Source: Desulfosediminicola ganghwensis (lineage in GTDB: Bacteria > Desulfobacterota > Desulfobulbia > Desulfobulbales > Desulfocapsaceae). From it: a stretch of DNA of 64,000 nt. A program made the translations under genes and the position numbers. Under the pieces are notes generated by a model. It ran no database searches. It saw only the letters and a program-made list of their open reading frames with translations, and was not told where the DNA came from. Positions 54,103 through 57,637 of the stretch are shown here, one piece after another. Each line of letters opens with the position of its first letter. The first letter of the stretch is position 1. The DNA is taken from contig NZ_CP050699.1 in NCBI RefSeq assembly GCF_005116675.2, positions 2,813,001 to 2,877,000 of the forward strand, given 5' to 3'.

Positions 54103-55341
54103 TCAGTATAGTTCGAATTTGATGAGTTCTTTGTGCTCATGAACTATTTCGCTGCTCTTGCCGCTGATGAAATAGGTAACGGTGGTGGTAATTTCGACCT
54201 GTTCCACATCAGTGTCAAAGTTCATAAGAAATTGCTCTCTGGCTTTTTGCATAGGCTGTAAGGTCAGATCGATTATATCTTTTATCTGCCACGCCCCGTA
54301 ACGCATACGACTTTGCATATCGCGACCAATTTCAAAATAGGTTTTGCTGGCGGTGAAGAGTATTTCCTGGTCTGAAGATTGAGCTTGTGGGTTACGTGCG
54401 GTCACTTCCAGGACCACTTGGCCGGACCAGAGTCAGCCGTCCGGAACTCTGTGTCCTGTTTTGTTGTCTATAAAAACAGTGACCACGGCTGACGGGACCC
54501 AGAGCTTTTCGTCTTTAACACCTTCAAGTTTGCCAGGGAGATGCTGATATGGGGTTATCTCAACCTCCAGACCAATGCCCTGGCGAACTGTGTCAATATC
54601 GTGGCCTCCCGGAAAAAGATGGCCTTTCTCCAGGTGGCAGTCCTGACAGGTTTTACTGCCGCCGTTGGCGATATAACTGTTCTGGTAACTTCCAGAGAGT
54701 GTATTGCAGTTAATTGTTTCCCCATCTGATGCTTTATAGATCCCATGGCACTGCATACAGAATGCTGATTGCACCAGATCGTCAGATTTTAAGGTCTCGT
54801 GTGCACCGTCGGTTTCATCGCCTCTCGGACCATAGATCATGCCTTGCTCTGCCGGGCCGTTATACCCGCGTGCCACTTCAGTTGCTTTGATATTATGGCA
54901 GGCCAGGCAACCGACATTGAGTCGGGCGAGTTGCTCTTTGGCGGCTTTGCTGGCGGCGCTGTCTTTTTCCTTGAAGGCGGTGACAATCATCTCACCTATC
55001 TCAATTGCCAGCTTCTCGCTGGCAAAGTTGATGACTGGGGCGTGGCAGTCCAGACATTTGAGTAACTGTCCTTTGGTGAGTGGGGTCTCCCACTCTTTCT
55101 TGAGGCCGATCTCAATAAAATTGTGGATTCCCCCCAGTGAGGAAACAACAGATTTGGCATGCCACGAATCACTCCATTGGGCATGGACTTCCTCGTGACA
55201 TTCCATGCAGCTACTTTCATCAAACATTTCCAGCAACTCGTCAATTGTATCTGCCTCTTTGGGGCTGGCCTGAGCTCCTGCTCCAATTAGGAGCAGGAGG
55301 ATAAATATAGTCAGACTCGTCAGTTTGTGTGCGGTTCCCAT
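54103..55341 (-). CDS. five-haem cytochrome c with in-frame TGA, candidate selenoprotein
   Basis: Strong AAGGAGG ahead of ATG and a signal peptide (IFILLLLIGAGAQASP). Five CxxCH sites follow: CMECH, CLDCH, CLACH, CMQCH and CQDCH. The frame reaches NKTGHRVPDG and then TGA at 54435-54433, and stays open for another 109 codons of normal coding character (LWSGQVVLEVTARNPQ up to LIKFELY). No ribosome site or good start lies near the TGA. Read through, the protein is 412 residues with Sec at 303. A hairpin begins 16 bases after TGA (GTGGTC, 8-base loop, GACCGC). Its loop does not start with G, so it is not a textbook SECIS. Otherwise the gene carries a nonsense mutation. Function: periplasmic electron transfer. 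Confidence 0.7.
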
Positions 55342-55888
55342 GACTCCTCCTTATTGGTTAGAGTGGCAAATAAAAATATCGCAGGGGAAATCGTTCAATC
55401 TCCCGATTTATAAGGGGAGAAAATAACAGAAAGAGAGCAGTAGCCTTACTTGGTTGTAGCAGTTAACGAGTCTGTGTATTCGAAAGTATGTGTTATATCA
55501 AGTTGTTGCCAGGGTAATTCCAAAAAGGGGGAATGCGTCTGCTGTTTCGGTTTTTCTTACATCTACTTAAATTATACTACGCTCTTAGAGCGAGAATTAG
55601 AAGGGAGAGCTGGGAAGGGCAGGCATATGTGCTTGTCTATGGGACTCTCGGCTCCGAGTTGCCATGTTGCTGTCTGCTCATATTCAGAAGTGAAAAAAGC
55701 GGAAGTTCCACTTTGTTGTCACTCCATTCCAGAACTGTCCCTGGGTTATGGAATGTTTACCACTGAACTGGAAGGTAATAGAAGAAACATTTTGGGTAAA
55801 GTTGAAGCAAAAACGTTCTTATGGGAAGTTGTCATTCGCTCCTCCATAAAGAAAGTTTTGATCAGTTCATTATTGAAACACCGTTGAT

Positions 55889-57103: not shown

Positions 57104-57130
57104 ATATAAGTAATAATATTGGTGAGTATT

Positions 57131-57637
57131 ATGATGAAGAAGATGTTGTGTGCATGTACCCTTGGTTTGATGATTGCCACTTCTGCCACTGCGGTTTTTG
57201 CGTCTGAACAACCAACCCCTGCAGAATTGATCAAGAGTCGGATAGCCGAGGCAAAATCACAGATTAAATCTGTAGACAGTGCAACGCTGAAGACCTGGAT
57301 CGATACAGGTGAAAAAGAATTTGTTCTTCTTGATGTGCGTGAGCCAGGCGAGGTGACCGCCGGTCAGATTGAGGCGGATGAAACTCTAGCTATTCCCAGA
57401 GGTATGGTGGAATTCCAGTTTGCGCGAAAAGTTGCAGACCTTGAGAAAGATGTCGTCGTTTATTGCCTCAAGGGAAGCAGGGGGGCGCTGGCTACTGAGG
57501 CGCTTCAGAATCTTGGTTACAAGAATGTGCACAATCTCGAAGGCGGTTTGCTCGCATGGATTAATGCCGGTCACTCCGTCAGCAACTTCTTTGGTGAGTT
57601 TCAGATGAGCAATTTCGATTCAAATTTTGCCAAGTAG
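57131..57637 (+). CDS. periplasmic rhodanese-domain protein
   Basis: 168 residues from ATG 57131 (a second ATG is at 57134). A signal peptide (LCACTLGLMIATSATAVFAS) precedes a single rhodanese domain: EFVLLDVREPGEVTAGQIEA, then the active-site loop VVYCLKGSRGALATEALQ with the persulfide Cys, and LEGGLLAWINAG. It should handle sulfane sulfur or other thiols in the periplasm. A terminator follows. Confidence 0.9.
   Translation: MMKKMLCACTLGLMIATSATAVFASEQPTPAELIKSRIAEAKSQIKSVDSATLKTWIDTGEKEFVLLDVREPGEVTAGQIEADETLAIPRGMVEFQFARKVADLEKDVVVYCLKGSRGALATEALQNLGYKNVHNLEGGLLAWINAGHSVSNFFGEFQMSNFDSNFAK

Follow-up and report, generated by a model that had tools for sequence, protein, structure and literature searches.

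An ExtKL-type pentahaem cytochrome c gene of Desulfosediminicola ganghwensis with an in-frame TGA codon that is very probably translated as selenocysteine

The window analysed here is a stretch of 64,000 nucleotides from Desulfosediminicola ganghwensis, and a cytochrome gene on its minus strand raises the question of how a TGA codon inside an otherwise open reading frame is read. The frame begins with ATG at 55341 and continues for 109 open codons past codon 303 to a second TGA (54105–54103). The TGA at codon 303 is the sole break between 54103 and 55341, all five CxxCH haem motifs lie upstream of it, and its context is GHRVPDG-U-LWSGQVVLEV. A preliminary description made from the sequence had given the frame, the TGA coordinates, the five motifs and the context correctly, as the open reading frame and its translation confirm. 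The product is very probably a single periplasmic c-type cytochrome with five haems, belonging to the ExtKL/MccSep family and carrying selenocysteine (Sec) at TGA codon 303. The Sec reading is strongly supported because of the TGA/Cys column in relatives, a hairpin conserved at silent sites, the presence of selB, tRNA-Sec and selD, and the alignment with MccSep of the PDB. The features of the locus are given below; the 75-row alignment mentioned there leaves out L108, L128, L139, L160, L161 and L166, which have other stops or are truncated.

54103–55341, minus strand: gene of a secreted pentahaem c-type cytochrome of 412 residues, with probable Sec at codon 303, stop codon included (open reading frame and NF040886 match)
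55345–55351, minus strand: AGGAGGA, resembling a ribosome-binding site, before the ATG (read by eye)
55267–55341, minus strand: probable signal peptide, residues 1–25 (from the look of the sequence only)
55195–55209, minus strand: haem motif 1, CMECH, residues 45–49 (Cys, Cys and His invariant in 75/75 alignment rows)
55042–55056, minus strand: haem motif 2, CLDCH, residues 96–100 (translation and 75-row alignment)
54895–54909, minus strand: haem motif 3, CLACH, residues 145–149 (translation and 75-row alignment)
54745–54759, minus strand: haem motif 4, CMQCH, residues 195–199 (translation and 75-row alignment)
54634–54648, minus strand: haem motif 5, CQDCH, residues 232–236 (translation and 75-row alignment)
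54706–54708, minus strand: Cys212, invariant and outside the haem motifs (75/75 rows; Cys also in 5ze8 and MccSep)
54451–54453, minus strand: His297 of GHRVPDG, invariant, candidate distal haem ligand (75/75 rows; kept in 5ze8)
54433–54435, minus strand: TGA codon 303, very probably read as Sec (codons of relatives and MccSep alignment)
54398–54417, minus strand: SECIS-like hairpin within the coding frame, GUGGUC-C-U-GGA-A-G-(U)-GACCGC (fold and conservation)
54106–54600, minus strand: predicted beta-sandwich (Ig-like) C-terminal domain, residues 248–412, with Sec in its early part (predicted structure)

The full translation, with the TGA taken as a residue, matches NF040886 over residues 7–409 at 455.1 bits (cut-off 250), on both sides of the TGA, and the 109 residues after the TGA score 85 bits on this model by themselves. 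The curated name of NF040886 is ‘multiheme c-type cytochrome (seleno)protein ExtKL’, and Pfam contributes general multihaem models only. As expected of ExtKL, five CxxCH motifs precede the site in the window gene, and the position directly after GHxxPDG, where Sec or Cys is expected, is a TGA. The window gene is a new member of the known ExtKL family and does not found a new selenoprotein family. Its earlier billing as a candidate new selenoprotein is not supported in this respect: NF040886 already carries ‘(seleno)protein’ in its name, the family was proposed in 2007 and has an entry in a 2026 review, and the PDB holds MccSep together with a U325A mutant.

A search covering 97 genomes, that of the window and those of its relatives, gave thirty loci that were read; the 29 of them that were aligned, all but L034, fall into two clades. 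Members of the clade that resembles the window gene read GHRxPDG-U-LWSG and are 56–67% identical to the window protein, while the 20 rows of the second clade read GHxIPDG-U-PTPNR or PSPNR and are 29–36% identical to it. The second clade also belongs to NF040886 (534–588 bits in the five tested), and the window's own genome carries one gene of each clade. In a tree of 80 rows, the window gene lies inside a clade of 24 Sec rows with support of 100/100, and the Sec/Cys label requires two changes on this tree. A diverged relative, L100, has an in-frame TGA in the context PHRVPDS-U and scores 173 bits, under the NF040886 cut-off; the Sec family may therefore extend beyond the current model.

A scan of contigs yielded 323 relatives, of which the best 80 were taken as named loci from Desulfobulbales, Thermodesulfobacteria, Nitrospirota and others. 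L166 stops short before the site, and 79 named loci cover codon 303; among these (best 80 of 323), 69 have TGA, 10 have Cys and none has TAA or TAG, so that the column including the window consists of 70 TGA, seven TGC and three TGT. All 42 matches with E < 1e-39 in the 97 genomes, counting the window gene and its paralogue, contain an in-frame TGA; L016 contains two, the second being the terminal stop in the alignment. A phylum scan of 395 genomes, with at most four candidates scored per genome, returned 51 matches over the cut-off, comprising 44 with one TGA, six with no stop and one with a TAA. The seven without the single TGA are four genes with Cys at the site, two tandem copies with Ile or Val, and one gene cut by a contig end; among these Cys genes, L085 and L086 are apparently identical with L159 and L161 from the scan of named loci. 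Three metagenome-assembled genomes (MAGs) contain a Sec copy together with a Cys one (L150/L158, L151/L161 and L152/L159), and such Cys paralogues are natural comparisons for the Sec copies with which they share a genome. L083 and L084 include tandem copies with Ile or Val in place of Sec (GHSLPDS-I, GHAIPDS-V); the neighbouring second copy has Cys in L083, and in L084 the contig ends within it.

Downstream of the TGA, dN/dS is 0.00–0.15 in the six closest pairs, two of which are Cys–Cys pairs. The medians over 43 pairs are 0.25 downstream and 0.14 upstream, with the pairs of L126 (up to 1.25) appearing unreliable. Silent sites are saturated between the window gene and its relatives, and dN/dS was read in close pairs only. 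The 97-genome search also includes some fragmentary copies (e.g., G089:C8 and G053:C17). Two Desulfobulbaceae copies, L199 and L202, carry, in addition to the TGA, a TAA or TAG within the matched frame.

These observations bear on the possibility of a nonsense mutation or pseudogene, which the preliminary description had retained as the main rival. If the TGA were a recent, disabling change, the cytochrome would now be produced without its C-terminal part. Any one genome could carry such a change, selA was not found in this genome (where masked bases could hide it), and a few copies elsewhere are fragmentary or have further stops. Against this stand the TGA shared by all 42 long matches (97 genomes) and by 69 of 79 loci (best 80 of 323), the low downstream dN/dS of the six closest pairs, and silent-site selection on the hairpin described below. 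The hairpin and the relatives with the same TGA remove this explanation from its leading place; as a general account it fails because the TGA/Cys column is conserved, and for the window gene it is scarcely credible.

Bacterial SECIS elements have a G early in the loop and a usual spacing from the UGA. In the window gene, 15 spacer bases follow the TGA, after which the arms GUGGUC and GACCGC enclose CUGGAAGU; the position of this six-base stem had been described correctly, and the loop had been said to lack the early-loop G. In the best fold of the 20 bases, a C-G and a U-A pair also close within CUGGAAGU, giving eight pairs that close GGA with one bulged U, and the early-loop G is thus present because GGA is left as the loop. 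A putative SECIS hairpin is accordingly found just after the UGA, where one is expected in a bacterial selenoprotein.

The motif TGGA[ATG][GT][TC]GA[CT]CG occurs in 67 of 70 Sec rows, the window included, and in none of the 10 Cys rows; across phyla, most Sec forms have a hairpin whose silent sites hardly differ, and the Cys forms are without it. Among 196 scorable columns, the greatest excess codon uniformity falls at codons 309, 310, 311, 313 and 314, and in the rows having the residue, Val309 is always GTG (56/56) and Val310 always GTC (66/66). The residues VVL[DE]VTA after the Sec position drift in the Cys forms at both the silent and the amino-acid level. Their conservation is probably due in part to the overlapping RNA hairpin, judging from the aligned codons.

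Pairing was evaluated in an alignment of 67 rows, made up of 66 of the 69 Sec loci (duplicate blocks removed) and the window. Across the eight pairs, 90.5% of cells can pair, a value as high in 1 of 500 shuffles, and the innermost pair is open in 29 of the 67 rows. With 105 distinct rows and the window's own fold minus its innermost pair, 92.0% of the cells of the seven pairs can pair, and both partners vary in four of the pairs; neither value was reached in 500 shuffles. Clear compensatory cases are L061, L070 and L167, and 33 of the 105 rows cannot form the outermost pair. When the structure is slid in the 105-row test, cells altered in both partners number 10 and 13 in the −3 and +1 registers, vs. 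6 in the unshifted one, and the +3 register has nearly the unshifted covariation score (0.066 vs. 0.068); pairing drops sharply in every slid version, to 66% at most. Unconstrained RNAalifold on all 67 rows did not recover the expected helix, giving a different one at −0.33 kcal/mol; without L173, L174 and L179, which follow another register, it gave −4.7 and five pairs of the expected helix. A fold test with synonymous codons gave a modest p = 0.036 for the window, and p ≤ 0.05 in 7 of 15 chosen Sec rows and 0 of 9 Cys rows. Rfam searches of the hairpin stretch returned only matches below the gathering scores. In L054 and L059, members of the other clade with an in-frame TGA, this hairpin is lacking in the 20 bases folded; L059 resembles MccSep around the site. 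Members of this type may use a SECIS of another kind, and this would be consistent with the unsuccessful search in 2007.

The same region is relevant to a two-gene arrangement, in which the cytochrome would end at the TGA and a separate protein would start nearby, for example at the GTG at 54417. The names extK and extL, and the available text of the cable-bacteria paper (PMC11976967), treat the two parts as two genes, and a conserved operon was left open in the passages available of the 2007 study (PMC1914089). The Cys forms, in contrast, are each one continuous protein, all 70 rows with a stop have TGA there and none has TAA or TAG, the GTG at 54417 is the first codon of the conserved hairpin, and MccSep is deposited as a single chain across the site. 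By eye, no ribosome-binding site is seen upstream of this GTG, in line with the first reading of the locus. Two separate genes are therefore very improbable.

The genome encodes SelB (384.7 bits, cut-off 242.25), a tRNA-Sec (selC; 75.4, cut-off 47) and two SelD proteins (373.5 and 355.9 bits, cut-off 125). Both selD genes of the genome (L041 and L042) themselves contain an in-frame TGA. No match to selA (TIGR00474, PF03841) was obtained in the genome, the sequence of which has masked bases that could hide it, and SepSecS was not found there. Matches to selA at E 0.001 or better were obtained in 52 of 58 genomes, the window's not among them. Of the sel genes on which the preliminary description made its proposal depend, selB, selC and selD are thus present, and selA gave no match; an actual loss of selA was considered as a biological oddity, and no conclusion was drawn since masked bases could hide the gene.

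Reading of the UGA as a canonical residue such as Trp, or by a route other than SelB, would be compatible with the missing selA match (again, masked bases could hide the gene), and the organism is known here from sequence only. The TGA is, however, replaced by Cys and never by Trp or Arg (79 loci, best 80 of 323), a hairpin follows the UGA, selB, tRNA-Sec and selD are present, and the PDB homologue is named a selenoprotein. Such readthrough has very little probability. The proposal of a Sec-containing cytochrome has fared well overall: the alignment at the TGA column gives Cys or TGA in relatives with a conserved downstream frame, and hairpin, selB, selC and selD are in place. None of the outcomes named in advance as speaking against it (homologues ending at the same point, a genome lacking sel genes, an unconserved downstream frame) holds for the family.

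Solved relatives place the site in a structural context. PDB entries 9wt8, 9wta and 9wtb share one sequence, named ‘Multiheme cytochrome c selenoprotein (MccSep)’, with X at position 325, and entries 9wt9 and 9wtc share another, in which residue 325 is Ala, and are called ‘mutant (MccSep U325A)’ and ‘MccSep’. These sequences match the window protein at E 4e-43 (X at 325) and 2e-43 (Ala at 325), and position 325 aligns with codon 303, a correspondence drawn from sequences and entry names. The X is taken as Sec. A literature search found no paper on MccSep, and MccSep is absent from the fold library listing.

A structure model of the mature window protein, with Sec as Cys, was built from the 75-row alignment (mean pLDDT 92.3, pTM 0.88), the model from the single sequence being poor (pLDDT 38). 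Its best solved-fold match is the penta-haem c552 of Thermochromatium tepidum (PDB 5ze8; Foldseek 2.4e-14), with Z 23.1, 303 residues aligned and an rmsd of 3.1. The C-terminal part is predicted to be a beta-sandwich, with fold matches spanning model residues 223–387. Gene callers that stop at the TGA drop this Ig-like domain, seemingly the case for Geobacter extK/extL and for the cable-bacteria cytochrome.

In the window, the gene is not part of an ext operon: this was rejected, as the ORF list holds no other CxxCH ORF between 50000 and 60000, and the ExtS family reaches at most 32 bits in the whole genome (cut-off 100). Flanks were examined for 80 loci, most of them of the window clade, which is mostly stand-alone and outside the Geobacter ext cluster. 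A rhodanese-domain gene, below NCBIfam cut-offs, occupies 57119–57637 on the plus strand, starting 1.8 kb upstream on the opposite strand; Geobacter extH is also rhodanese-like. A gene that reads as membrane-fusion-like appears in the fetched flanks of five loci including the window, possibly by chance. All seven Nitrospirota Cys forms (L155, L156, L157, L162, L163, L164 and L165) are directly preceded by YeeE/YedE-like genes of one BLAST cluster, 20–39 bases away, with one overlapping by 16, and three tested cluster genes are Sulf_transp (PF04143). An operon linking the Nitrospirota Cys cytochrome to sulphur/selenium transport is possible. In Caldimicrobium, the Cys copy L158 is followed by a rhodanese-like gene. 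For the subfamily as a whole, a conserved operon was rejected, the sole adjacent recurrent partner seen in the flanks listed being the Sulf_transp-type gene of the seven Cys forms.

Beyond the CxxCH motifs, the Cys and His positions invariant in 75 of 75 rows are His61, His241, His297, Cys212 and the Sec/Cys position itself, which follows His297 by six residues; 63 of the 75 rows retain His181. With five haems and three invariant distal-type histidines, there would be room for other ligands. By analogy with the known bacterial pathway, SelB with Sec-tRNA would bind the hairpin and decode the UGA. After export and haem attachment, the five haems could pass electrons to or from Sec, which would lie near the haem ligated by His297, its probable distal ligand, and could react with a substrate or partner of the sulphur or selenium type in thiol-like redox chemistry. 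A redox or distal-ligand role for Sec is possible. Cys212 as the exclusive partner of Sec is weakened as a candidate, given that 5ze8 (Ala at the site) and the Ile/Val copies L083 and L084 keep Cys212. A more specific proposal is speculative and rather unlikely to hold in full: that throughout the mostly stand-alone subfamily of Desulfobulbales, Thermodesulfobacteria and Nitrospirota, including the sPHC cytochrome of cable bacteria, Sec contacts a haem, as sixth ligand or with a substrate in between, and moves electrons between the five-haem chain and sulphur/selenium compounds. Hints at the substrate come from the Sulf_transp-type and rhodanese-like neighbours of the Cys forms and from Geobacter, where extH is rhodanese-like and selenite/tellurite reduction suffers in an extI mutant, according to the passages available of PMC5877670, and a ΔextHIJKL mutant shows less Fe(III) citrate reduction in those of PMC6148476.

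The proposal of the family in 2007 is presumably the work of Fujita and others. In its available passages, the 2007 paper (PMC1914089) put the family forward on Geobacter sequences, detected no SECIS, expected the family to be without non-Sec relatives and kept a conserved operon as an alternative. Later sources, in the parts available, describe an anti-ExtKL antibody with a preliminary link to selenite reduction (Jahan, 2018; PMC5877670), the possibility that the TGA makes ExtK and ExtL one protein (PMC6148476, 2018), and listings of the family in 2022 (PMC9312934) and, with no motif given, in the 2026 review (PMC13188914). The 2026 review cites Zhang 2008 (PMC2398784) for ExtKL, a paper with no ‘cytochrome’ in its main text. 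The passages available of PMC8318568 contain nothing on Sec in an ExtKL-type protein; those of PMC10553843 report an ExtKL homologue expressed in syntrophic sulphate reducers, with nothing on Sec in the protein. As far as these passages go, the SECIS hairpin and the Cys relatives appear to be additional to the earlier papers. The sequences answer two points left by the 2007 paper: Cys relatives exist, and a SECIS hairpin is present in most members read.

Geobacter ExtKL (GSU2937–GSU2936; NF040886) shares with the window gene the five CxxCH motifs, the GHxxPDG-U site and the C-terminal beta-rich domain. Unlike Geobacter ExtKL, the window gene is not beside ext cytochrome genes, and its clade differs from the other ExtKL clade in having LWSG in place of PTPNR/PSPNR, in being ~20–35 residues shorter and in its identity of 29–36%. 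Geobacter ExtKL would belong to that other clade, as suggested by the size given in the available part of PMC5877670. MccSep has its Sec site aligned with that of the window protein (E 4e-43), and differs in belonging to the other clade, with GHSIPDG-X-PTPNR. The c552 of T. tepidum (5ze8) has the same overall fold and keeps the equivalents of His297 and Cys212, but it has Ala at the Sec position (PHAMPTG-A) and is 21% identical.

Another close known system is the sPHC of cable bacteria, a cytochrome that has been discussed as a possible component of their conductive fibres. In the passages available of the paper on strain RB (PMC11976967, EMBO Rep 2025), sPHC has a ‘two-gene structure’ and is a structural homologue of ExtKL and T. 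tepidum c552. It resembles the window protein as an ExtKL-type homologue, and the fold match of the window protein to c552 agrees with those passages; it differs, as published there, in being two genes and not one. The words ‘selenocysteine’ and ‘selenoprotein’ do not occur in the available main text of that paper, and a literature search on cable bacteria and selenocysteine found nothing related. Ca. Electrothrix aarhusensis (L117) carries a window-clade gene with the TGA and the hairpin, and four of the eight genomes of its genus carry the gene with the TGA and hairpin block; L117 and L186–L189 are the cable-bacteria members that have both. Going by these Ca. Electrothrix members, the sPHC gene pair of strain RB is probably one selenoprotein gene, as proposed here for the window gene.
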